A program made the position numbers and the translations under genes. This document shows positions 14,870 to 28,329 of a stretch of DNA of 40,936 nt, piece after piece. Position 1 is the stretch's first letter, and each line of letters opens with the position of its first letter. The notes under the pieces are model-generated. The model did no database searches. It worked only from the letters and a program-made list of their open reading frames with translations, and had not been told where the DNA came from. Location of the stretch: assembly GCA_028876065.1 (NCBI GenBank), contig JAGWTI010000022.1:1-40936 (forward strand), in the 5' to 3' direction. This DNA is from Nitrospirota bacterium. Its GTDB lineage: Bacteria > Nitrospirota > Nitrospiria > Nitrospirales > Nitrospiraceae.

Positions 14870-15361
14870 ATGCTGGTCTGCGGCTGCGGACGTTGGATGC
14901 ACACGCAGGGGGTGGATGAGGCGTTCGATGACGAGCCGCACCGCGCGTGGCTCGTCCGGTCCGAATGTGTGGGTTGCGGGCTGGCCGTCGGTTGCGAGGG
15001 TTCCCCCGAAGAAACGCTGGCTCTGGTGGATCGGCTTGTGTGGAGCGACGATGCCCGCCACGCGCTGGAGCGGATGCCTCCCTATGTGGCGCCGCTGGTC
15101 AAGCCGGAGGTCGAAGACTATGTCCGGTCCAAGGGGCAGAAAGTCGTCACGATGGCCTTGATGGCTCAGGCCCGGCAGGGAGGGGCCGTCGCGTGGGAGC
15201 CGGAAGCAGAGCAGCGGTTGGTGAACGTGCCGGGTGCGGTGAGAGCCATGGCGAGGCTGGAGTTGGAGCGAACCGCCGTTGAACGCGGCCTCGCTCGAGT
15301 CACAGTGGCCCTGATGGAAGAAGTGAAAGCCCGATATTTCGGGATGGCCGCTGGGAAATGA
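14870..15361 (+). CDS. Cys-rich protein with C-terminal PCP_red domain
   Basis: 163 residues. The N-terminal part has Cys4, Cys6, Cys33, Cys36 and Cys42, a likely metal-binding (zinc or Fe-S) cluster. The C-terminal part, from about residue 108 (W-E-P-E-A-E-Q-R-L), fits the PCP_red domain first known at the end of the light-independent protochlorophyllide reductase subunit BchB. Its hallmarks are seen: W-x-P-E-A, V-P-x-x-V-R-x-M, E-x-x-A-x-x-x-G and V-T-x-x-x-M. In non-photosynthetic bacteria this domain appears alone, with no settled role. It starts 4 bases after the DUF420-like gene. A tetrapyrrole or redox-assembly role near the oxidase genes is inference. Confidence 0.65.
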   Translation: MLVCGCGRWMHTQGVDEAFDDEPHRAWLVRSECVGCGLAVGCEGSPEETLALVDRLVWSDDARHALERMPPYVAPLVKPEVEDYVRSKGQKVVTMALMAQARQGGAVAWEPEAEQRLVNVPGAVRAMARLELERTAVERGLARVTVALMEEVKARYFGMAAGK

Positions 15362-15458: not shown

Positions 15459-15467
15459 GAGGAAGTG

Positions 15468-16550
15468 ATGTTGCACCGGCTGACGTTGCGCGTGTTGCCC
15501 CGTTTGACCTTGGCGGTGACCGAGGACTCAGTCCGCAGGCGCAAGCGGTTGGTGATGCTGGTGCCGGGGCTGGTGGCCTTTGCCATCTATCGAATTGTGA
15601 AGCGGGCAGACCCGCTGACCGATCCGTTCTTGTTGCTCTTCGTGAGCGGCCTGATTGCGGCGATGACGGCTTTGCTGGCCTATAGGGTTGGCCGTCGAAC
15701 CGGGTTCGCCGCTTTGTGGGAGGAAGACGGAGGACGGCGGCTCGGTTGGGTGACGGGCTGGATCGGATTCTGTTACGGGGTGCAGCTCTCGCTGATGGTG
15801 CTGGCTCTGCTGAAGATCCTTGCCGGGTACGACTATCTCCTCCATCCGGACGGGCCGGCCATGATGGCCATCATCATTGCCTGCACCTCGGTGGCACGGG
15901 ATGCGTTCGAAATCGGACATGTGCGGCGATTGCAACGTGACGGCCAACCGATCCTGACCTTCCCCGACGGTGGTGCCTTGCGCGCCCTCGTTCGAGAACA
16001 GCCGGGGATCTTGGCCGGGTGGACGCTGCTGGCCGGTTTGGGCGGAGCGCTGTTGGCGGTCGGACTGTCCGGCCTGGGCAAGGGAGATGACGCGTTGGCC
16101 GTCCAGTTCGCCTTGATCAGCCTGCTGGCCGGCTCTGTCGCGCTGCCCGCCTATCTATCGGGCCAACAACGGTCTGGGGGATGGGTGGCGGCCTTCGGCT
16201 TGCTGGGCTGGCCTGAACTCTTTCGATTCTGGTGGTGGCCGGGCTTGGCCTTTGCCGCGACGTACTATTTGGTATTGGCCGGGGCGGTGGCGTTCCTGGT
16301 GCGACCGGATCCTATCCCCGGCTCCATCCATGGGCTGATCGGCCTGCTGGTGACGGGTATCATGGCCCTCTATTGCTACTATCTTGGGTACCGGCGGGCG
16401 TTGGAGGATCGCATCCAGCAGCAGGTGCCCACTTCCTTGTTGCGTTGTCCGTTCGTCTTTGGCATTCTGTCGAAAACACAAGCTGTGCCGACCGACGGGG
16501 TGGTCCCGCCGGCCGGGGTTGCTCTCGGAGAGAGCGGGAGGCAAGGTTAA
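15468..16550 (+). CDS. Unknown multi-spanning membrane protein
   Basis: 360 residues with about eight predicted membrane helices (for example L-V-M-L-V-P-G-L-V-A-F-A-I-Y, M-M-A-I-I-I-A and a helix near residue 280). Several Trp/Gly-rich segments occur, such as F-R-F-W-W-W-P-G. No family was recognised. The ATG at 15468 has GAGGAAG just before it; a GTG at 15465 in the same frame is possible. The gene ends directly at the first codon of the bd-like oxidase gene (TAA then GTG), so the two are probably translationally coupled. A role as oxidase partner or assembly factor is suggested only by position. Confidence 0.6.
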   Translation: MLHRLTLRVLPRLTLAVTEDSVRRRKRLVMLVPGLVAFAIYRIVKRADPLTDPFLLLFVSGLIAAMTALLAYRVGRRTGFAALWEEDGGRRLGWVTGWIGFCYGVQLSLMVLALLKILAGYDYLLHPDGPAMMAIIIACTSVARDAFEIGHVRRLQRDGQPILTFPDGGALRALVREQPGILAGWTLLAGLGGALLAVGLSGLGKGDDALAVQFALISLLAGSVALPAYLSGQQRSGGWVAAFGLLGWPELFRFWWWPGLAFAATYYLVLAGAVAFLVRPDPIPGSIHGLIGLLVTGIMALYCYYLGYRRALEDRIQQQVPTSLLRCPFVFGILSKTQAVPTDGVVPPAGVALGESGRQG

Positions 16551-18470
16551 GTGCAACGGGCTGTGTGGTGCCGGGGGATACCCTCCGTCATGGCGATGGT
16601 CACACCAACTGGCGTGCGGCTGCTTGCGTTCGTCGTCCTGCTTTCCTGTGTGACGGTACCGGCGGTGTTTGCGCAGAGCGTCGTCGATTCAACCCCGTCC
16701 GGCGTCGCGCGGGACATTTATTACAAGACCGACGGTGTGCCGACCGGGCCGCCCGCTCCGGCTTCGGACGAAACGCGCTACCCGCGCTACGGCTCGTTCG
16801 ACAACCGGACGTTTGTGTGGTTCGTGACCCAACAGCATACCTACTTCGGCGGGTTCGTGTTGGCCCTGCCGATCTTTTGCGTGATCATCGAATTGATCGG
16901 CCTGTTCACGCGCGATAAAACGGTGGCGGCCCGGTACGATTGTCTGGCGCGCGATTTCTTGCGCGTGTCGCTGCTGGCCTTGTCTTTGACGGCCGTCGTG
17001 GGGAGTTTGATGCTGGGCATGTTTCTCTGGCTCTATCCCAGCTTCATGCGTTACATGGGCGGGACCTTCAAGGCGATGATGCCGGTGTATGCGTTCATCT
17101 TTGTGGCGCAATCGGTCTGCCTCATCGCCTATTACTACAGCTGGGACCGCATGGCCGGGCCCTCCTTGAAATGGCTGCACGTCTCCCTCGGGGTGGTCGT
17201 GAACAGTCTCGGCGGGGTGCTCCTCCTGTTGGCCAATGCCTGGGCGGCGTTCATGATGGCGCCGGCCGGTGTGGACGCGCAGGGGCGCTACCTCGGCAAT
17301 GTGGCGCACCTGCTCCATTCGGCTTTGTGGAATCCGCTCAATGTGCACCGGTTCCTGGCGGACATCATGTCCGGCGGCGCGGTGGTCATCGCCTACGCGT
17401 CCTATCGCTTTTTGACCAGCAAGACGGACGAGGAGCGGGCCTACTACGACTGGGTCGGATATGTGTTTCTCTTCGTCACGGTCTGCGCGTTGTTACCCAT
17501 GCCCTTTGCCGGCTATTGGCTCATGCGGTCGGTCTATGCATTCCGGCAGAGCATGGGCGTGACGATGATGGGCGGGTTGCTCACCTGGTTGTTCGTCGTC
17601 CAGGCGCTGCTCGTCGGGGTCCTGTTCCTGGGGATCAACTATTATCTCTGGCAGAGCATGGGACGCATGCGGGGCGGCGATCGGTACCAGCCGTACTTCC
17701 AATACTTGGTGTGGGCCCTGATGGGCTGCCTGTTCGTCTGGCTGACCCCGCACACGGTGGTCATGGCCCCCAGCGAGGTCAAGGCCATGGGCGGGGCGCA
17801 GCATCCGGTGATCGGCAACTACGGGGTCATGTCGTCCAAGAACGGGGCGATCAATGTGATGATCTGTCTGACGGCTCTCAGTTATATCTTTTTCCGGCGG
17901 GCCAACCGCGCCATCACGGTCCCGTGGGTCCGGATGGGGAATATCGTGCTGGCGACGCTCTTTGTGACGGGCATCGCGAATATCATCTGGCTCTCGGTCT
18001 ACGGGTTCTATCTGCCCGCCAGCGTGCGGGTGGGGCTGTCCAGCCCGCAGGCGTGGACGACGTTGACGGTGCTGGTGGTCGGGCTGCTGATCAACCGGAG
18101 CATGATGCGGGGCGCGAAGGTGCACGGGCCGATCGAATGGGGCAAGATCTCCGTGCGCGGCATGGTTGCGCTGTTTGGGCTTGCGGCGACGTTTACGTGG
18201 GTGATGGGATTGATGGGCTACATCCGATCCTCCGGACGGCTCTCCTGGCATGTGAACGAACTGATGTCGGATGTGTCCCCCTGGGCCTATACCCCGTCGT
18301 TGGGTTTTGCGGCGAAAATGGTGACGCTCAACATGGTGGTGTTCTGGCTGACGGTTCTGCTGCTGTTTTGGATCAGCAGTCGGGATCGCCGGACCGTTCC
18401 GGTAACGGGATTGATCCCGCACGATCGTGCGCCGATGCTCCCCGGGGCTCGCGAGGCCCAGCCGTCATGA
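16551..18470 (+). CDS. Cytochrome bd-like terminal oxidase subunit, copy 1 (CydA-like)
   Basis: 639 residues with a signal-like first helix and about 13 further membrane segments, longer than E. coli CydA (about 520 residues, 9 helices). Candidate heme ligands are His96 (T-Q-Q-H, in a position resembling the N-terminal His of CydA) and His266 (N-P-L-N-V-H-R). The S-P-W-A-Y-T block near the C-terminus resembles the CydA GRQPW region. There is no CydB and no obvious Q-loop, so quinol oxidation is doubtful; cytochrome c as donor is an inference. GGGAGG lies 9 bases before the GTG at 16551; ATG 16590 is an alternative. It is a close paralogue of the protein at 22100. Its function as an oxidase is likely but unproven. 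Confidence 0.78.
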   Translation: MQRAVWCRGIPSVMAMVTPTGVRLLAFVVLLSCVTVPAVFAQSVVDSTPSGVARDIYYKTDGVPTGPPAPASDETRYPRYGSFDNRTFVWFVTQQHTYFGGFVLALPIFCVIIELIGLFTRDKTVAARYDCLARDFLRVSLLALSLTAVVGSLMLGMFLWLYPSFMRYMGGTFKAMMPVYAFIFVAQSVCLIAYYYSWDRMAGPSLKWLHVSLGVVVNSLGGVLLLLANAWAAFMMAPAGVDAQGRYLGNVAHLLHSALWNPLNVHRFLADIMSGGAVVIAYASYRFLTSKTDEERAYYDWVGYVFLFVTVCALLPMPFAGYWLMRSVYAFRQSMGVTMMGGLLTWLFVVQALLVGVLFLGINYYLWQSMGRMRGGDRYQPYFQYLVWALMGCLFVWLTPHTVVMAPSEVKAMGGAQHPVIGNYGVMSSKNGAINVMICLTALSYIFFRRANRAITVPWVRMGNIVLATLFVTGIANIIWLSVYGFYLPASVRVGLSSPQAWTTLTVLVVGLLINRSMMRGAKVHGPIEWGKISVRGMVALFGLAATFTWVMGLMGYIRSSGRLSWHVNELMSDVSPWAYTPSLGFAAKMVTLNMVVFWLTVLLLFWISSRDRRTVPVTGLIPHDRAPMLPGAREAQPS

Positions 18471-19529: not shown

Positions 19530-20453
19530 ATGGAAAATAGAGGCGTCTTGATCGGGTCCATCATCTTTGTGTTTGCGTCTTTTATCTTGATGATCGTGGG
19601 ACTGGTCTACGAATCGTATCGCGCCAAGCAACAACGGTTGCTGGCCGAGTCCATTGTCGTAGAAAACAAGCCGGTGGCCACGGTGGCGCCGCGGGATTAT
19701 TCGATTTACAAGACCATCGTGGGCGACGATGGGCGTGAAATGGTGCAGATCCCCGAGGGGCCGTTTACGATGGGGAGCAAGGACGGGGACCCGGACGAGG
19801 CGCCCGAGCACCAAGTCTATCTGCGCACCTATTACATGGATAAGAAGGAAGTGACCCAAGCGGAGTACGAGCGCTTTGTGAAGATGACCAAGCGCGGGAA
19901 ACCGTTCATTCCGGTGTTCGAGGACGACCAGGCGAAGATTCTCAAGCCCGAGCTGCCGGCCATGGGGATGTCGTGGGCTGATGCGGAAGCCTATTGCAAG
20001 TGGGCCGGTAAGCGTCTGCCGACCGAGGCGGAATGGGAAAAGGCCGGTCGCGGCGAGGGGAAGCGACGGTACCCGTGGGGTGACGACTTCGGTTCCGGCC
20101 ACGCCAATGTGGACGGCGACGAGGATGGGTTTAAGTACTTGTCCCCGCCAGGGTCGTTCGAGTCGGGGCGAAGCTTGTATGGGTTGTATGACATGACGGG
20201 GAACGTGGCCGAGTGGGTGGCGGATACATACAGCGAGCAGTATTATCAAAAGACGCCCTATCGCGATCCTCTTGGCCCCGAAGATGGGCAGCACAAAGTG
20301 ATTCGCGGAGGGTCATGGCGGGAAACGCATCACAATGCGCGGCTCTCGAAGCGGTTTCAGGCCAAAATGTGGAGGACCGACACGACGATCGGGATTCGAT
20401 GCGCCAAGGACGCAGACGAGCCGTCTGCCGAGGCGCGGAAGAGCAAAGGCTAG
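19530..20453 (+). CDS. Membrane-anchored FGE/SUMF1-fold protein, copy 1, lacking catalytic cysteines
   Basis: 307 residues. One N-terminal membrane helix (residues 7-27) anchors a periplasmic domain of the formylglycine-generating-enzyme fold (about 65-295): I-P-E-G-P-F-T-M-G-S near the start, then E-V-T-Q-A-E-Y, the [22 protein letters not shown] block, the G-N-V-A-E-W-V motif and a final R-C-A strand. In true FGE two cysteines sit in the R-G-G-S-W segment region; here that stretch (W-R-E-T-H-H-N-A-R) has none. It is probably a binding or structural member rather than an oxidase of sulfatases. No sulfatase gene is nearby. Confidence 0.8.
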   Translation: MENRGVLIGSIIFVFASFILMIVGLVYESYRAKQQRLLAESIVVENKPVATVAPRDYSIYKTIVGDDGREMVQIPEGPFTMGSKDGDPDEAPEHQVYLRTYYMDKKEVTQAEYERFVKMTKRGKPFIPVFEDDQAKILKPELPAMGMSWADAEAYCKWAGKRLPTEAEWEKAGRGEGKRRYPWGDDFGSGHANVDGDEDGFKYLSPPGSFESGRSLYGLYDMTGNVAEWVADTYSEQYYQKTPYRDPLGPEDGQHKVIRGGSWRETHHNARLSKRFQAKMWRTDTTIGIRCAKDADEPSAEARKSKG

Positions 20454-20500: not shown

Positions 20501-21415
20501 ATGCTGGAACCCAAATTCAAAATTGCCTTCCTGTTGGTGGTCCTCGCCTTTATCAGCTTTCCGGTCATGGGAATTTTGCGGGGCACCACCCCGCCCCCTG
20601 AAGCTCCTCCTGCTCCGGGAGAAAGCTCGACACCTGCCTCCACTGCATCCAGCCAACCGGGTCCAAGCGAGGTGCCCGTTCCTGAGGAGATGGTGTCGAT
20701 TCCCGCCGGTCCCTTCCTACGGGGCACGAAGAGCGGCGGCTATGATGAGCAGCCGGAGCGGACTATCTACGTCGATGCCTTTTCCATTGACCGATACGAA
20801 GTCACCAACGCGCAGTATCAAGCCTTTGTCGCTGCGACAGGTCACCGCAAGGCCGCGCCCCCGTCTCGTTATGCCAAGAACCTCAGTCGCATGAAAGGCG
20901 TCAACCAGCCCGTAGCCTATGTGTCGTGGGAGGACGCCGATGCCTATTGCCGGTGGGCCGGCAAGCGCTTGCCCACTGAAGCGGAATGGGAAAAGGCCAT
21001 GCGCGGGGTGGACGGCCGACTCTGGCCGTGGGGCAATGAGCCGGACCAATTAGCGTTCAACGGAGGCTCGTCGCGCGACGGATTTGAAGCGACGGCGCCG
21101 GTGGGTTCGTTCAAACGCGACATCAGCCCCTTTGGCGTGGCGGATGGAACGGGGAACGTTATGGAATGGGTGGCCGACTGGTACGGGGAAGAGGCCTATC
21201 GAGACCCAGCCGACCGCAATCCCACCGGCCCCGAACATGGCGTGTTTCGGGTGATGCGGGGCGGCGGCTATACGAGCCAAGGATCGGATGTGCGGATCAC
21301 CAGTCGGAGCAAGATGGTGCCCGACTTTCGCGACGAGACGATCGGTTTTCGTTGTGCGGTTTCTAAGGCAGGAGAGACGGGCGGAGCCCAGTCGTCGGCC
21401 AGTCAAAAATCATAG
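20501..21415 (+). CDS. Membrane-anchored FGE/SUMF1-fold protein, copy 2, lacking catalytic cysteines
   Basis: 304 residues. An N-terminal membrane helix (about 6-27) is followed by a Pro/Ser-rich linker (about 28-60), then the FGE fold: [54 protein letters not shown] and G-F-R-C-A-V. The [10 protein letters not shown] segment again lacks the cysteine pair of active enzymes. It follows copy 1 by 47 bases. Two adjacent, non-catalytic FGE folds with anchors suggest a heterodimer presented to the periplasm, perhaps holding an oxidase or cytochrome; this is inference. Confidence 0.8.
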
Positions 21416-21514
21416 GAAATCAAAGTAATAGAGGATCAAAAACACGGCCAAAATTATATTGACAACCATTCCGGCCAAAACTATAATGTCGAACACTTTT
21501 GAGTTTTTGCTCAT
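21410..21514 (-). CDS. Possible 34-residue membrane micro-protein
   Basis: Minus-strand ATG at 21514 with AGAGGA about 8 bases upstream; stop at 21410-21412. The peptide begins M-S-K-N-S-K-V-F-D and continues as a single hydrophobic helix ending Y-Y-F-D-F-L. Positive N-terminus plus one helix is typical of small membrane proteins. A TTGACA-N17-TATTGC promoter on the same strand lies just upstream. However, the frame also covers a perfect promoter read from the other strand, so it may be a chance frame in AT-rich regulatory DNA. Convergent with the FGE copy 2 gene, overlapping its stop by 6 bases. Confidence 0.42.
   Translation of the reverse strand: MSKNSKVFDIIVLAGMVVNIILAVFLILYYFDFL
21459..21487 (+). 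promoter_or_regulatory. Perfect-consensus sigma70 promoter of the second oxidase operon
   Basis: TTGACA (21459-21464), a 17-base spacer and TATAAT (21482-21487). All twelve box positions and the spacer length are consensus, in locally AT-rich sequence. It predicts transcription from about 21494 and a leader of about 157 bases to the first micro-protein at 21651. Such a strong promoter implies high constitutive output or strict repression. Confidence 0.75.
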
Positions 21515-21547
21515 CCTTTGTCCTCTTCAGTAAAAACGACGAAGAGA

Positions 21548-21576: not shown

Positions 21577-21650
21577 GGCGACGAAATAGGTACTGCAGAG
21601 TTAAGCGGACGCGGACCATCAACCTAAGGTTGTAGCTGAGGAGAAGGGAC

Positions 21651-21791
21651 ATGGGAGAAGCAGTCGCAAGCGCACCAGACAAGCCGGATAGCGAACTGAA
21701 GGTCAAGATCGGCAAGATGATTTTCTACATCACTTGCGCGGTGAGTCTCTGGTTCTTTTATTGGTTTGCAGGCATTCAGTGTCCCTGCTAA
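21651..21791 (+). CDS. 46-residue single-helix membrane protein, oxidase-linked
   Basis: The ATG at 21651 follows GAGGAGAAGGG. A polar N-terminus (M-G-E-A-V-A-S-A-P-D-K-P) is followed by K-V-K-I-G-K and one membrane helix (M-I-F-Y-I-T-C-A-V-S-L-W-F-F-Y-W-F), ending I-Q-C-P-C. The two terminal cysteines could bind metal or form a disulfide. It is the first gene after the strong promoter. Tiny single-helix subunits such as CydX stabilise bd oxidases; no sequence relation to CydX is claimed. Confidence 0.65.
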   Translation: MGEAVASAPDKPDSELKVKIGKMIFYITCAVSLWFFYWFAGIQCPC

Positions 21792-21859
21792 GCAATGGTT
21801 CTTAATGTGTTCCGGTATGCCGCGTGGGCGAAGGGGCGTGGCAGGAGGAGAGGGGAGCA

Positions 21860-21991
21860 ATGAGCGCGCTGAACAATCCCGTAATTGCTGTGATCGTATC
21901 CGTGATTATCGCCGTGAGCTACTTCACGCTGGTGGATCATTTCCTGATGGACATGCAGGGGCTGGATTATTGGTATCTGTTCCGCAAGTAA
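21860..21991 (+). CDS. 43-residue single-helix membrane protein, oxidase-linked
   Basis: The ATG at 21860 has AGGAGAGGGG upstream. A short polar start (M-S-A-L-N-N-P) leads into one helix (V-I-A-V-I-V-S-V-I-I-A-V-S-Y-F), then an acidic and aromatic tail with D-H-F-L-M-D-M and D-Y-W-Y-L-F-R-K. It sits between the 46-residue protein and the bd-like subunit, in the same direction. A candidate small subunit; no family was recognised. Confidence 0.65.
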   Translation: MSALNNPVIAVIVSVIIAVSYFTLVDHFLMDMQGLDYWYLFRK

Positions 21992-22099: not shown

Positions 22100-24046
22100 A
22101 TGGGCAGTTTGACCAGAAAGAAGACGCTGGCGGTCATGGCGTTAAGCGCGATGATTGGCCTCCTTCTCCTGCCAATCGTGGTCTCGGTTCCTGCGCTTGC
22201 GAGCGGAGGCGGGGCTCCGGCTGGTGGGCCTCCCCCTGACGTGGTCAAGAAAGAAGGGGGTGAGGGGGATAAGGACAAGAAGGTCGAGAAGGCTCGCGAT
22301 GTCTACTACAAGACCGAAGGGATCGTATCCGGGCTTCCGGCTCCCAAAACCGGGGACAACGCAAAGGACTATCCGCGCTACAACTTCGAGAGCCGGGTGC
22401 TCCTCTGGTTCGCCAATCAGCAGCACCTTTACTATGGCAGCTTCGTCCTGGCGGTGCCCATCTTTTGTATGGTCATCGAATTCATGGGGGTGATGACAAA
22501 GGATAAGGCGATGGCCAAGAAATATGACCAGCTCGCCTATGACTTCATCAAGATCAGTTTAACGGCGTACTCCTTGACCGCGATTCTTGGCGGTATCCTG
22601 ATCTTCACCTTCCTGACACTCTATCCTGCCTTCTTCGGGTATCTCTCGAGCATCTTCCGTCCGGTCATGCATATCTACGCGTTGATGTTCGTGGCCGAGA
22701 GCGGCACCCTCTACATCTACTACTACGGCTGGGATAAGATGAAAGAGGGGTTCTTGAAGTGGATTCACCTCAGCATGTCGGTGATTCTGAACGTGATCGG
22801 GACGGTGCTGATGTTCCTGGCCAACTCCTGGATCGGGTTCATGATGTCCCCGGCCGGTGTGGATGAGCAGGGGCGCTTTCTCGGAAACATCTGGCATGTG
22901 ATCCATACGGCGCTTTGGAATCCGTTGAACGTGCACCGGATCCTGGGCAATATGGCCTTCGGTGGCGGCGTGGTCGCGGCCTATGCGGCGTATCGGTTCC
23001 TGTCCTCGAAGACCGACGAAGAGCGGGCCCACTATGACTGGATGGGCTACATCGCCATGTCGTTGGGCGTGGCCTTCTTGATCCCGCTGCCCTTTGCCGG
23101 TTACTGGCTGATGCGTGAAGTGTATGCCTATCGGCAGCAGATGGGTATCACGCTGATGGGCGGTCTGTTGGCTTGGCTGTTCATCATTCAGGCGACCATG
23201 ATCGGCATCCTCTTCCTGAGCACCAATTACTATCTCTGGCAGGCTCTGGGGCGGATGCGCGGCGCCGAGCGGTTTCAGCGCTGGATCAAGTATTTCGTGT
23301 TCCTCCTGGTGTGCGGCTTCCTGGTGTTCATCACGCCACACACGATGGTGATGACCCCGGCTGAACTAAAGGCTATGGGCGGGCAGCAGCATCCAGTGTT
23401 GGGGAACTATGGAGTCATGTCCGCGAAGAACGGCGGGATCAACGTGATTATCACGACCACCGTGCTGACTTTCATCTGGTATCAGCGCGGGAATCGGGTG
23501 CCGAGCGTATCCTGGTCCAAGTTCGGTAATATCTTCATGGGCGTGTTCTTTTTCTTCGCCTACGTGAATATTATCTGGCTGGCCATCTACGGCTATTTCA
23601 TTCCGGCTAACGTCCGGGTGGGATTGTCCGTGCCGCAGGTGGCGACCACGCTCTCCTGCCTGTTCTTTATGACCGCGCTGAACCTCTCCATGTTGAAGGG
23701 GGCCAAGCAGATCGGGCCGATCGAATGGGGCAAGATATCGGTGCGTTCCCAGTACGCATTGATCATGCTCGCGACGGCTTTCACCTGGATGATGGGCTTG
23801 ATGGGCTACATCCGCTCCTCGGTGCGGTTGTTCTGGCACGTCAATGAGATCATGCGCGACAACTCTCCCTGGGCCTATACGCATACGGTGGGGTTCGCCG
23901 CCAATATGATTTCCTTCAACGTGTTGTTCTTCTGGATTAGCATTATGTTCGTATTCTGGCTCGGCACGCTGGCGGCGAAGAAAGCGCCGGTGGAAGCGAA
24001 AGCGCCGGTTCCTGGGCAAGCGCCCCAGCCGGCGGTTGGACACTAA
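22100..24046 (+). CDS. Cytochrome bd-like terminal oxidase subunit, copy 2 (CydA-like)
   Basis: 648 residues, ATG preceded by AAGGAGG (22088-22094). A signal-like first helix (about 9-35) and a Gly/Pro/Lys-rich linker come before about 13 membrane helices. Candidate heme ligands are His109 (N-Q-Q-H) and His279 (N-P-L-N-V-H-R). Blocks shared with the copy at 16551 include D-x-Y-Y-K-T, P-F-A-G-Y-W-L-M, I-T-P-H-T, Q-H-P-V, G-N-Y-G-V-M-S, I-G-P-I-E-W-G-K-I-S-V-R and S-P-W-A-Y-T. No CydB gene accompanies it; instead three c-type cytochrome genes follow in the same operon, which favours cytochrome c as electron donor. The tail from about residue 625 is Ala/Pro-rich and probably disordered. Oxidase function and substrate are inferred from the fold and operon. 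Confidence 0.82.
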   Translation: MGSLTRKKTLAVMALSAMIGLLLLPIVVSVPALASGGGAPAGGPPPDVVKKEGGEGDKDKKVEKARDVYYKTEGIVSGLPAPKTGDNAKDYPRYNFESRVLLWFANQQHLYYGSFVLAVPIFCMVIEFMGVMTKDKAMAKKYDQLAYDFIKISLTAYSLTAILGGILIFTFLTLYPAFFGYLSSIFRPVMHIYALMFVAESGTLYIYYYGWDKMKEGFLKWIHLSMSVILNVIGTVLMFLANSWIGFMMSPAGVDEQGRFLGNIWHVIHTALWNPLNVHRILGNMAFGGGVVAAYAAYRFLSSKTDEERAHYDWMGYIAMSLGVAFLIPLPFAGYWLMREVYAYRQQMGITLMGGLLAWLFIIQATMIGILFLSTNYYLWQALGRMRGAERFQRWIKYFVFLLVCGFLVFITPHTMVMTPAELKAMGGQQHPVLGNYGVMSAKNGGINVIITTTVLTFIWYQRGNRVPSVSWSKFGNIFMGVFFFFAYVNIIWLAIYGYFIPANVRVGLSVPQVATTLSCLFFMTALNLSMLKGAKQIGPIEWGKISVRSQYALIMLATAFTWMMGLMGYIRSSVRLFWHVNEIMRDNSPWAYTHTVGFAANMISFNVLFFWISIMFVFWLGTLAAKKAPVEAKAPVPGQAPQPAVGH

Positions 24047-24122: not shown

Positions 24123-25436
24123 GTGGTCGAGTTAATTCAGGCAGCGTTGGACATGGGGTGGCCGATACTGGCCTTTCTCGTCTGCTTGCTTGTCTATTTC
24201 CAGGTGAGCATCAGCGACCCTGCGAAGAAGAAGCAAGCGACATTCAAGACATTCATCGGCATGATCGCGGCATTCATGTTGCTGATGGCTATCGCCAATT
24301 ACAAAATCAATTTCTTTGCCAATTCGAGGCTCCTGCCCGTCTCTCTGGCCATGATTACCGCGCTGGCCTTTATGATGGGCATCTATTTCACGAACATTGG
24401 CGCGCTCTTTAAGATCGGCGGGTTCATGTTCCTGGTGGCTGCGGGCCTCTCAGGATATGGGAACTGGCTGCCTCAGGTTGAGGGTGGATTCCCTCCGGCC
24501 GAAGTCAAGTTGGACTTCGGAAGCATGTCGGCTCAGCAGCTGGCCGACGAGGGAGAGAAGATCATTTTCGGTGGGATCGGGCAGAGCAAGGTGCAGGGCG
24601 CGATCGGCAAGGGCCAGTGTCCCCTCTGTCACGGGTTCAACGAGGGGTTCTTGAGCGAGCGGGCCCCCAACCTTTGGGGTGTTCCTGATCGGGCGAAGAC
24701 AAGGCTGGATGATCCCCGCTACCATAAAGGGAAGCCGGGTGATCGCGATACGGAGCAGAAAGAGGCATTCCCTGGGTCCGGTACGGCGGAGACCGGTCAG
24801 GAATATATTGCTGAGTCCCATTCCTGCCCGAGCTGCTTTGTCGTCGCCGGATTCGGAGTGAAGGGGACGAACGATAAGCAAAGCCCGATGCCGGCGATTC
24901 ACAAGCCGCCCATCTCCCTCTCTTTGGGTGAGCTGGCCGCCGTGGATACCTGGATGTATGTGCGCGAAGGCAAGGAAGCTCCGTCTTTCGAGGAAATTAC
25001 CAAAGCCTACGAGAAGTTCATCCCGGAGGCGGACCGGCCCAAGCAAACGGAAGACAAGCCGGGGGCGGCCGGCGGTGGTGGCGTGTTGGCGACCGGCGAG
25101 GAGCCTGTGGATCAGATTTTCCAGAAGGCGACTTGCGTGGCTTGCCATACGATCCCCGGCATTGCCGGAGCGGTCGGGACCATCGGTCCCAAGCTGGTGG
25201 AGGGCACCAATGCCCCGACTCGGATCAAGGATCCGGCTTACAAGGGCACGGCCAAGTCGACGCGCGAGTACATTACGGAATCGGTCATCAATCCGAGCGC
25301 GTTCGTGGTAAAAGGCTTCCCGGACAATACGATGCCGAAAGAGTTCGGGAAGAAGCTCAGTGCCGGTGCGCTGAACAAGATTGTGGATTATCTCTCCCAG
25401 CTGCAAGAAGGCAAGGAGCCTCCCAAAATTTCTTAA
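24123..25436 (+). CDS. Membrane-anchored cytochrome c with two heme sites
   Basis: 437 residues starting with GTG at 24123 (AGGAGGG, 7 bases upstream). The first 115 residues form about four membrane helices; two cytochrome c domains follow. Heme sites are CPLCH (Cys166, Cys169, His170) and CVACH (Cys338, Cys341, His342). The second domain has a likely axial Met in D-N-T-M-P; the matching site in the first is S-P-M-P. Cys235/Cys238 (CPSCF) look like a broken heme site, but the flanking sequence aligns with I-N-P-S-A-F-V-V of the other domain, so it is a cysteine pair, not a lost heme. It would receive electrons in the periplasm and pass them to the bd-like subunit encoded just upstream. Confidence 0.83.
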   Translation: MVELIQAALDMGWPILAFLVCLLVYFQVSISDPAKKKQATFKTFIGMIAAFMLLMAIANYKINFFANSRLLPVSLAMITALAFMMGIYFTNIGALFKIGGFMFLVAAGLSGYGNWLPQVEGGFPPAEVKLDFGSMSAQQLADEGEKIIFGGIGQSKVQGAIGKGQCPLCHGFNEGFLSERAPNLWGVPDRAKTRLDDPRYHKGKPGDRDTEQKEAFPGSGTAETGQEYIAESHSCPSCFVVAGFGVKGTNDKQSPMPAIHKPPISLSLGELAAVDTWMYVREGKEAPSFEEITKAYEKFIPEADRPKQTEDKPGAAGGGGVLATGEEPVDQIFQKATCVACHTIPGIAGAVGTIGPKLVEGTNAPTRIKDPAYKGTAKSTREYITESVINPSAFVVKGFPDNTMPKEFGKKLSAGALNKIVDYLSQLQEGKEPPKIS

Positions 25437-25492: not shown

Positions 25493-26524
25493 ATGAAGGT
25501 ATTAATCGGATCAGTGCTTGGAGGGTTGGTGGTGGTGCTTATTGCACTTCTGGCCTTCGGTGTCCTTCCAGCCACGTCCCTCAAGCTGGTGGAAGGCTAT
25601 ATGCCGATGCAGATGTTGTTTGAGCTGGGTGCCAGCGTGGCCATCTTTGCCGTGATGAGCTACCTGCTCGGCCAAGGCGGCGTCCAGCTGTCTCGGTTTT
25701 GGCAAGGGATTTTATTTTGGGCATACGTCCTCCTGTACCTCAAGTTCAGGGTGTATCCGCCCATTCCTTTCAGCGTTCGGGCCATGTATGGCACGGTGAC
25801 GCTGATTGCCGTGTTCATGTGGGTGTCCAGCAACGAAGAAGACTGGAAGAAGTTCAAGCAGCCGATCATGAATGTGCTGGATGCCAACACCGGTTTCCAT
25901 AAAGCGCTTCGCACGGTCTATCTGATCGCGTTGCCCATTCTTCTCTGGGGCTTCTCCTACAGTTCCTTCCTGCCCAATCTGGACGAGCCGGTCGAGCTGC
26001 GCACGGTGCACCCGGCGCCGCCGGCCAGCACCAAGGTGCACGGAAAGACCTTTGTGCTCCAGACGTCGCAAAATCCCTATCGGGTCAATCCGGAAGGGAA
26101 GTATGACCAGGAATATACCAATGCCCGAATCGTTGAACAGGCGATGGGGCGTCTGATGAAGCCCGATGCCAATCCCTGGGACGAGAAGGCTGAGGGGTAC
26201 CTCAAGTACGTGCGCGAGGGTGGGGAAATTTTCTTCCAGAACTGTCACTTCTGCCACGGCGACAACCTAAACGGCCGCGGCTTGCACGCCTTTGCCTTTA
26301 ACCCGATCCCGGCCAACTTTACGGACCCGGGCACGATTGCCCAGTTGCAGGAGACGTTCATCTTCTGGCGCGTCTCGAAGGGTGGAATCGGGTTGCCGAA
26401 CGAAGGATTCCCCTGGGCATCGGTAATGCCGCCCTGGGAGCAGCACCTGACGACGGACGAGATTTGGAAAGTCATTTTGTTCGAATACTGGCACACAGGC
26501 TATTATCCGAGAACTTGGGATTAA
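25493..26524 (+). CDS. Membrane-anchored cytochrome c with one heme site
   Basis: 343 residues; AAGGAG precedes the ATG at 25493. About five membrane helices occupy residues 1-165, then a periplasmic cytochrome c domain with CHFCH (Cys251, Cys254, His255) and a likely Met ligand in S-V-M-P-P-W. The domain order, membrane part first and heme domain last, matches the preceding cytochrome gene. Gaps to both neighbours are short (56 and 32 bases). Likely a fixed electron relay in the same complex as the bd-like subunit and the other cytochromes. Confidence 0.82.
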   Translation: MKVLIGSVLGGLVVVLIALLAFGVLPATSLKLVEGYMPMQMLFELGASVAIFAVMSYLLGQGGVQLSRFWQGILFWAYVLLYLKFRVYPPIPFSVRAMYGTVTLIAVFMWVSSNEEDWKKFKQPIMNVLDANTGFHKALRTVYLIALPILLWGFSYSSFLPNLDEPVELRTVHPAPPASTKVHGKTFVLQTSQNPYRVNPEGKYDQEYTNARIVEQAMGRLMKPDANPWDEKAEGYLKYVREGGEIFFQNCHFCHGDNLNGRGLHAFAFNPIPANFTDPGTIAQLQETFIFWRVSKGGIGLPNEGFPWASVMPPWEQHLTTDEIWKVILFEYWHTGYYPRTWD

Positions 26525-26556: not shown

Positions 26557-28329
26557 ATGAGGCATGTGAAGAGTAAGGTGCTGTTAGTCGCGCTCGCGGC
26601 CCTGGGGATCACGATGGTCTCCGGCAGCGCAGGGGTCTCGATCTTCGCGCAAGAAGGGGGCGGGCTCCCCGAAGGTTTTAAGAAGGGTGAACTGGCGCCG
26701 CTTCCCTCTGCGGAGATGATCGAAGCGGGCAAGCGGGTCTACTTTACGAAGTGCGTCTGGTGCCATGGGGTGGACGGGGCCGGCGATGGTCCTGCCGCCG
26801 ACCGCCTCTGGCCTCGTCCTCGCAACTTCAACCAGGGGACCTTCAAAATTCGACGGACGGCCAGCGGCGAACTGCCGTTGTTCGACTCCAAGAAGCCGGT
26901 CGAGGCCGAGAACGACTTGTTTGCAACCGTGACCCACGGGCTTCCCGGATCCGCCATGCCGTCCTGGGAAGGCATTCTGACCGAGGAACAGCGGTTGCAG
27001 GTCTTGTCGTTCGTCACGACCCAGCTCATCAAGGACCGCAAGTTCGACGACAAGGCGACGGAAACACAGACTGTACTGCAGTTGGACGAAATCAAGCCGA
27101 TTCCTGTTAGCAAGGAGAGCCTGGAAAAGGGCGCCCAGTTGATCGTGGACAAGAAGTGCATCGAGTGCCACGGGGTCACCGGGCGGGGGGACGGCAACGC
27201 GTTCAACCTGAAGGATGACTGGGGTTTTCCGATTCAGCCGGCCAACTGGCACAAGTGCTGGAACTTCCGAGGGAGCCGCCAGGATCCGTACAACATCAAG
27301 AACATTTTCCGGACCTTCTCCACGGGGGTGAGCGGCACGCCGATGCCCTCCTTCGCGGACAACACGACGGTCGAAGAGCGGTGGCACATCGCCAACTTCG
27401 TGAACTCGCTCTGCGAGCGGGACCCAGAAGGGAACCCGCTGCCGATCGATCCGCTGACCGACAAGCCGAAGGTGAACTTCGTGATCCGGTCCGGTCCGGT
27501 GCTGGAAGGGGAGATCTCCGACGATCCGGAGAACGAGATGTGGCAGAAGCGTGAGCGCCGGATCGTGTTGTTCGGCGGGCAGATCACACACAAGCCGCGG
27601 AATTTCGTCAACCGGATCGACGACGTCTGGGTCAAGTCTCTGTACAACGATAAGAACATCGTGTTCCTGTTTCAGTGGGATGACCGATCCAAGAGCGTGG
27701 CAGAAGGGAAGCTGCCATGGCAGCCCACCGAAGTGAACGTGGAGAACTACGGGGTCAAGGAACAGGCACCGAAGACCGGCGAAGGTGATTCGATTGCCGC
27801 CCAACAGAGCAAGTATCCGGTCTACAACGACGCCTTTGCGTTCCAGTTTCCGGTCAAGTGGCAGGAACTGCCGGCCCCGATCAAGCCGCGCTACCTCTGG
27901 GGAGACCAGAAGTATCCGGTGGACATCGTGAAGTGGGAAGCCAACGGGACCATCAAGGCGTTTACGGGAACCGGCTGGGACCAGGACTTCCAGGATCGGG
28001 ACGATTATACCGAGAAGCTCAAGGTCCTGAAACAGGAGTGGAAGGATGGTCGCTGGACCTTGATGGTCAGCCGGCCCATCAAGGAAGACTACGACGAAGA
28101 CACCTACTTCGAGATGGGCAAGTACATCCCGACGGTGTTCTTCGCGTGGGATGGGCACAACGGGGATGCAGGCCGCAAGATGGCCGTGTCCGCCTTCTAC
28201 TACACGGTCTTGGAGCCGCCCATTCCAAGGGAGACTTACATCTATCCGACTCTGATCGCGATCGGTGTCGTGATCTTGGAAGGGTGGGTGTTGACCCGTC
28301 GGGCTAACAAGAAGAAGGGCAAAGTCTAA
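26557..28329 (+). CDS. Dihaem cytochrome c fused to an ethylbenzene-dehydrogenase-type heme b domain
   Basis: 590 residues. Signal peptide to about residue 31. Two cytochrome c domains follow, with CVWCH (Cys66, Cys69, His70) and CIECH (Cys201, Cys204, His205). From about residue 305 to 560 comes an EB_dh-type domain, the heme b-binding beta fold of ethylbenzene dehydrogenase gamma and NxrC-like subunits (E-G-E-I-S-D-D-P, then R-R-I-V-L-F-G-G-Q-I, W-V-K-S-L-Y-N-D, V-F-L-F-Q-W-D-D and later R-W-T-L-M-V-S-R). A final membrane helix (about 564-582) with a Lys/Arg tail anchors it. It is the last gene of the operon. It could collect electrons from a periplasmic donor and pass them to the membrane cytochromes; partner enzymes are not in view. 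Confidence 0.83.
   Translation: MRHVKSKVLLVALAALGITMVSGSAGVSIFAQEGGGLPEGFKKGELAPLPSAEMIEAGKRVYFTKCVWCHGVDGAGDGPAADRLWPRPRNFNQGTFKIRRTASGELPLFDSKKPVEAENDLFATVTHGLPGSAMPSWEGILTEEQRLQVLSFVTTQLIKDRKFDDKATETQTVLQLDEIKPIPVSKESLEKGAQLIVDKKCIECHGVTGRGDGNAFNLKDDWGFPIQPANWHKCWNFRGSRQDPYNIKNIFRTFSTGVSGTPMPSFADNTTVEERWHIANFVNSLCERDPEGNPLPIDPLTDKPKVNFVIRSGPVLEGEISDDPENEMWQKRERRIVLFGGQITHKPRNFVNRIDDVWVKSLYNDKNIVFLFQWDDRSKSVAEGKLPWQPTEVNVENYGVKEQAPKTGEGDSIAAQQSKYPVYNDAFAFQFPVKWQELPAPIKPRYLWGDQKYPVDIVKWEANGTIKAFTGTGWDQDFQDRDDYTEKLKVLKQEWKDGRWTLMVSRPIKEDYDEDTYFEMGKYIPTVFFAWDGHNGDAGRKMAVSAFYYTVLEPPIPRETYIYPTLIAIGVVILEGWVLTRRANKKKGKV

Follow-up and report, generated by a model that had tools for sequence, protein, structure and literature searches.

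Three conserved micro-protein genes accompanying a bd-like/alt_NxrC_2 gene cluster of Nitrospirota, one of them overlapping a putative promoter

Single-span proteins of about 40 residues that are tied to a CydA-type gene are known as CydX, CydY and CydZ (DUF2474). Among the defining features of CydX are its location downstream of cydB in the cydABX operon and the dependence of oxidase stability or activity on it; its reported topology is N-in/C-out, and a conserved acidic residue lies near the end of its helix (PMC4325964). Larger gene clusters comparable with the one considered here have been described from Nitrospira, where bd-like_3 and alt_NxrC_2 (so named by Mundinger et al. 2019) occur with two c-type cytochromes and a bd-like_4 copy nearby, and where the cluster genes of N. 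moscoviensis are among the 40 most transcribed, according to the passages of PMC6606698 that deal with them. The corresponding section of PMC3578206 describes a bd-like cluster with the same gene content in Nitrospina and Kuenenia, and terms the function of its bd-like proteins enigmatic because they lack quinol-binding residues. Where these two papers treat the bd-like paralogues, they propose a different one, bd-like_2, as the terminal oxidase of Nitrospira, and discuss bd-like_3 as an NXR-associated or reverse-electron-flow complex. Finally, the bd-like oxygen reductases of the OR-N type are thought to use cytochrome c and not quinol (Murali et al. 2021, cited in the relevant parts of PMC12342949 and PMC10839748).

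The window, by which we mean the whole stretch of 40,936 nucleotides analysed here, contains a cluster that by its gene content and order is the Nitrospira bd-like_3 plus alt_NxrC_2 cluster, preceded by three very short genes that we call m0, m1 and m2. The features concerned are as follows.

21410..21514, minus strand: micro-protein gene m0, 34 aa, predicted single span, divergent from m1
21459..21487, plus strand: putative perfect sigma-70-type promoter TTGACA-N17-TATAAT (12/12 consensus match), lying in the m0 coding sequence and facing m1-m2-bd
21515-21525, minus strand: Shine-Dalgarno-like sequence gaggacaaagg of m0
21640..21649, plus strand: Shine-Dalgarno-like sequence ggagaaggga before m1
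21651..21791, plus strand: micro-protein gene m1, ATG start, 46 aa, ending GIQCPC-stop, predicted single span, C-terminus probably periplasmic
21844..21856, plus strand: Shine-Dalgarno-like sequence ggaggagagggga before m2 (ggagga/gagggg)
21860..21991, plus strand: micro-protein gene m2, ATG start, 43 aa, one predicted helix, conserved D...LM..QGL in the C-terminal part
22100..24046, plus strand: bd-like (CydA-superfamily) core subunit, 648 aa, Pfam PF01654 Cyt_bd_oxida_I at 7e-20, Shine-Dalgarno sequence aaggagg
24123..25436, plus strand: membrane-bound c-type cytochrome, 437 aa, with a homologue in 79/80 of the best distant loci
25493..26524, plus strand: second c-type cytochrome, 343 aa, with a homologue in 68/80 of the best distant loci
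26557..28329, plus strand: alt_NxrC_2-type protein, 590 aa, two cytochrome c domains (diheme c) and an ethylbenzene-dehydrogenase-like heme b domain, with a homologue in 67/80 of the best distant loci

A sequence-only reading of the window had already drawn attention to two micro-ORFs of 46 and 43 codons, each with a ribosome-binding site, in front of the bd-like gene. Both hold at these coordinates, and Shine-Dalgarno-like sequences also precede their orthologues at the loci inspected; the count of two fell short, as m0 on the minus strand, between an FGE-sulfatase gene and m1, had been overlooked. The clue to m0 was an outgroup locus (L143) at which m0, m1, m2 and the bd-like gene stand in a row on one strand. 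Upstream, the window holds a gene for a PCP_red (protochlorophyllide reductase 57 kD) domain protein (14870-15361), here in a Nitrospirota genome, and PCP_red-like ORFs surround the bd-like cassette in 16 of the 80 best distant loci. It is followed by an ORF of 361 aa (15465-16550) with no Pfam or NCBIfam match and by the bd-like_4 paralogue (16551-18470), which is 56% identical and has no micro-protein partner. Two tandem formylglycine-generating-enzyme-like (FGE-sulfatase) genes, at 19530-20453 and 20501-21415, separate the two bd-like operons, and the second is arranged tail to tail with m0, whose end it overlaps. The genome itself (3.41 Mb) carries an NxrB-like gene.

The core protein of the cluster has a CydA fold: its AF2 model matches 7ose_A with a Z of 33.7 and an rmsd of 3.6 over 351 residues (structure matches ranked below the CydA group were taken as common helical arrangements). 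The QxH, E and NxxHR columns, which by their position we take to be the heme ligands of E. coli CydA (N-terminal His, Glu and second His), are invariant in 53 bd-like sequences across phyla. In its fold and heme-ligand positions the protein is also like the OR-N type, a likeness of features and not of tree placement. The label "bd oxidase" used in the earlier reading needs changing: the protein belongs to the bd-like group, which is without the quinol site, and bd-like_2 is the terminal oxidase proposed for Nitrospira.

That m1 and m2 are real, conserved protein-coding genes, far beyond chance, is clear from their relatives. Conservation and the rates of synonymous and non-synonymous change had been set as tests for them: of the 175 genomes in the window's family, 160 have m1 and 155 have m2, profile matches recur upstream of the bd-like gene in distant loci (below), and the median pairwise dN/dS, from alignments made without a motif filter, is 0.066 for m1 and 0.087 for m2, not near 1. 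The third gene behaves likewise, with a dN/dS of 0.068 and a nearly identical m0 as the divergent neighbour of m1 in 160/175 family genomes. The alignments give an invariant core GKMIFY.T.A....FFYW..G.QCPC for m1 and S......YF..VDH.LMD.QGLD.WY for m2, and in m0 both the G and the N of a GxxxN motif are invariant in 71 distinct sequences. Each micro-gene occurs in the genome as a single copy, at the bd-like_3-type paralogue only; a genome search found no micro-gene in front of the other bd-like genes. The description of both proteins as single helices applies to the window, but several genera have an m2 with two helices: at L009, L018, L024, L027 and L038 it measures 67-70 aa and has an additional N-terminal transmembrane helix, which suggests an older or longer version of the micro-protein.

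To follow the module further, 84,980 species genomes were scanned with a bd-like profile, and the best 80 loci of those listed were taken as distant loci. The MAGs that supplied them are labelled as Nitrospirota, Nitrospinota, Alpha-, Beta-, Gamma-, Zeta- (Mariprofundus) and 'Delta'-proteobacteria, and at those displayed the 437-aa cytochrome homologue is the next gene after the bd-like one. The bd-like gene is likewise preceded by two or three small single-span ORFs at loci of further families and orders in the class and the phylum. Within 1.8 kb upstream of it, profile matches to m0, m1 and m2 across these best 80 loci numbered 45, 49 and 63, respectively, while the remaining 747 kb, serving as a control, gave none for m1 or m2 and two for m0. 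Counting just the 72 of them with more than 700 nt of upstream DNA, m0 is found at 52, m1 at 54, m2 at 66 and all three at 43. The spacing of the micro-genes varies among the distant loci, and a few residues are fixed or nearly so across the distant sequences (the G and N of m0 and a G of m1 at 100%; in m2, D at 92%, Q at 91%, G at 91% and L at 96%). A search for relatives among plasmid records found none. In several proteobacterial MAGs (L215, L224, L231 and L246) a bd-cytochrome-cytochrome-altNxrC cassette stands twice in tandem. The presence of the cassette in many MAGs of other groups sets it apart from the published Nitrospira, Nitrospina and Kuenenia clusters and rules out a module specific to NXR.

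The Nitrospinota are a special case. Five of their loci lacked the trio beside the bd-like gene found, which could have been read as an absence; a search of eight whole genomes overturned this, with m2 in 8/8 and m0 in 5/8. In six of the eight, m1 and m2 lie together with no bd-like gene in the stretch examined, and in four of those six m0 is found alone elsewhere. At these places (L311-L316 and L318-L321) the m1-m2 pair and m0 sit among unrelated genes. In several Nitrospinota the trio thus stands apart from the bd-like gene that was found, which makes its partner there uncertain.

How do these proteins compare with CydX? They resemble it in size, in their single span and in their tie to a CydA-type gene; moreover, the D of m2 recalls the acidic residue near the end of the CydX helix, and N-terminal extensions forming a second helix occur both in m2 and in CydX (PMC4325964). 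However, m1 and m2 are encoded before the cydA-like gene and m0 on the opposite strand, the cassette has no cydB and its cytochromes c come after the bd-like gene, and there are three different proteins here. The sequence-only reading had seen no similarity to CydX, and rightly so: neither CydX nor DUF2474 in Pfam and NCBIfam matches m0, m1, m2 or their distant homologues, and hhalign against E. coli CydX gave a probability of 10% for m1 (10 columns) and 0.2% for m2, a comparison of low power with a single CydX sequence. In fact the m0 search of these libraries and those with m1, m2 and their distant homologues returned no family at all, nor did m1 or m2 match the PDB. The Trp at the start of the CydX helix is missing from the window proteins and from alignments A1 and A2; many proteobacterial m1 have W-A-G-P at the start of the helix. 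Judged by sequence, gene position and this Trp, m0, m1 and m2 are not CydX. The small-subunit role of CydX type suggested earlier is nevertheless the best reading of their conservation and link to the bd-like gene, with three proteins instead of two. Such small subunits are not described in the portions of the OR-N texts concerned with these enzymes (PMC12342949, PMC10839748), unlike in the window cassette.

The m0 gene carries a second message. Scanning the region for the promoter consensus gave a single promoter-like site, at 21459-21487, and perfect sites of this type number three in the whole genome, this one included. The site is intact in 71 of 79 distinct m0 cores, always with a spacer of 17 bases; all 71 distinct cores of families f1-f3 keep it, and the eight without it belong to f40 and to families outside the order. 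The codons under the hexamers (ATT ATA and GTT GTC) show no synonymous variation in the 71 cores, whereas those of the spacer vary freely (about 1.5 bits), and ATA is a rare codon, used for 3 of 192 Ile in the remaining genes of the window. No such promoter stands out above shuffled sequences in m0 from other phyla. There is selection on the DNA of the putative promoter within m0, and the stretch would be dual coding. The frozen promoter codons can also explain why the synonymous difference is lower in m0 (0.48) than in m1 (0.78) or m2 (0.76). Transcription would start from this site inside m0; if the promoter is used, the m0 and m1 transcripts would overlap at their 5' ends. This would be a clean case of a single DNA segment that encodes a protein on one of its strands and acts as a promoter on the opposite one. 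The strand of m0 is not constant: among the best 80 loci listed it is divergent at 37 and co-directional at 15. It switches between lineages, yet m0 remains with the m1-m2 set.

In Acidiferrobacteraceae-type MAGs (L215, L238 and L246), m1 runs on into a class I cytochrome c with a CxxCH motif (Pfam Cytochrome_CBB3, 1e-11; fusions at 5099-5704 of L215 and 5115-5630 of L246). Maturation of c-type cytochromes takes place in the periplasm, so that the m1 C-terminus, and with it the CPC end of the window protein, should face that side. The positive N-termini and hydrophobic stretches of the micro-proteins fit the same N-in/C-out arrangement, which is predicted for all three as single-span proteins. 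The CPC end had been remarked upon as unusual; it is indeed present in the window m1, but proved to be lineage-specific, being shared within the order by families f1, f2 and f3 (in one instance as CPCL). In f40 the end reads ATVVHH, other families of the class have H-containing ends, and most proteobacterial m1 stop directly after the helix without a C or H tail. A constant C or H at this end, as the first class-level loci had suggested, was therefore dropped, and CPC as an essential feature is rejected, since the majority of distant m1 lack it.

Could the CPC be a metal or thiol-redox site, for Cu(I) binding or a disulfide, added with the acquisition of NXR? Such a role would be compatible with a subunit; it is in keeping with the probably periplasmic C-terminus, with the H-containing tails elsewhere in the class and with the distribution of NxrB-like matches of about 175 bits, which are present in f1 and f2 and in part of f3, and were not found in f40 or other class members. 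Family f40 probably corresponds to the Nitrospirales family UBA2166, reported in the pertinent part of PMC12342949 to be without NXR. CPC marks the NXR-bearing Nitrospirales clade, but its link to NXR amounts to one evolutionary event; four of the seven f3 genomes tested have no NxrB match though CPC is retained (these are fragmented MAGs), and the tailless proteobacterial m1 speak against a core function. We regard the redox site as rather unlikely.

Co-folding with the 648-residue subunit, proposed earlier as a check, was done by reading through the stops, for m2+bd of the window and m1+m2+bd of L270. The former (AF2, alignment of 53 sequences) reached a pTM of 0.78 with the m2 helix at a pLDDT of 85-96; an isolated helix can also reach high pLDDT. 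In the latter, three sequences deep, m1 was not placed (pLDDT about 54). The score of m2 describes its helix and defines no docking site.

Taken together, m0, m1 and m2 are probably accessory subunits, each with a single span, in a membrane complex that comprises the bd-like protein, the two c-type cytochromes and the alt_NxrC_2-type protein. We infer their physical membership, topology and function, and the use of the promoter, from several lines: purifying selection, co-occurrence in the same place from genus to phylum and single copies at one paralogue; the retention of m0 despite its strand switch, persistence when unlinked in Nitrospinota, the joining of m1 with a cytochrome c that has CxxCH, and the invariant residues within the helices; and, finally, the pLDDT of the m2 helix, the CydA-like core, the promoter and the strong transcription in N. 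moscoviensis described in the passages of PMC6606698 on this cluster. Against it count the incompleteness of the trio, with all three at 43/72 loci with enough upstream DNA among the best 80 listed, the low pLDDT of m1 in the co-folding model and the position of the trio away from the bd-like gene in several Nitrospinota. On the model of CydX, CydS and other micro-subunits of oxidases, the three would most likely pack against the bd-like helices and support assembly and heme retention, and m1, with its C-terminus in the periplasm, may help to dock a c-type cytochrome. In the Nitrospirales that bear NXR, m0 is inverted, and its coding DNA would also contain the strong promoter from which the m1-m2-bd-cytochrome operon is transcribed.

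Alternatively, the micro-proteins might be assembly or maturation factors, for heme insertion or cytochrome docking, that stay outside the finished bd-like complex. Small membrane proteins dedicated to assembly serve several oxidases, the Nitrospinota micro-genes can sit apart from the bd-like operon, and m1 can carry a cytochrome c domain, all of which would suit this role. In most lineages, however, the micro-genes keep a fixed position ahead of the structural gene, and their products are very short, lie almost wholly within the membrane and have invariant residues in the helix; this looks more like subunits, and we hold the assembly factors to be distinctly unlikely. It is very improbable that m1 and m2 are regulatory leader peptides controlling the bd-like gene by translation, as short ORFs upstream of an operon might suggest: they are conserved at the amino-acid level with low dN/dS, m1 is fused to a cytochrome domain, the spacing is variable, and the persistence of the micro-proteins at Nitrospinota loci unlinked from the bd-like gene makes this reading fail. 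Chance ORFs or gene fragments, for which the very short length might speak, are a negligible prospect and ruled out by conservation in more than 150 genomes and many classes together with the dN/dS, the fusion and the unlinked persistence.

Returning to accessory subunits as the preferred reading, we lean, with some reserve, towards a broader proposal: that an undescribed m0-m1-m2 module belongs invariably to a cytochrome-c-linked bd-like complex that is widespread and occurs in several phyla, and that in NXR-bearing Nitrospirales m0 is truly dual-coding, its codons frozen for a perfect-consensus promoter of its partners' operon, which arose in the lineage that also gained the CPC tail of m1 and the bd-like_4 duplicate. 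The open-access passages on these clusters (PMC6606698, PMC3578206) make no mention of the micro-proteins, an antisense m0 or an embedded promoter; the proteins may have been listed earlier as hypothetical in supplementary tables or in Murali et al. 2021. In nitrite oxidisers and their relatives, the bd-like complexes show strong expression, have no solved structure and are termed enigmatic in the literature. Three unlisted, probable subunits would provide targets for structural and proteomic work, as well as a sequence marker of the complex in many phyla.
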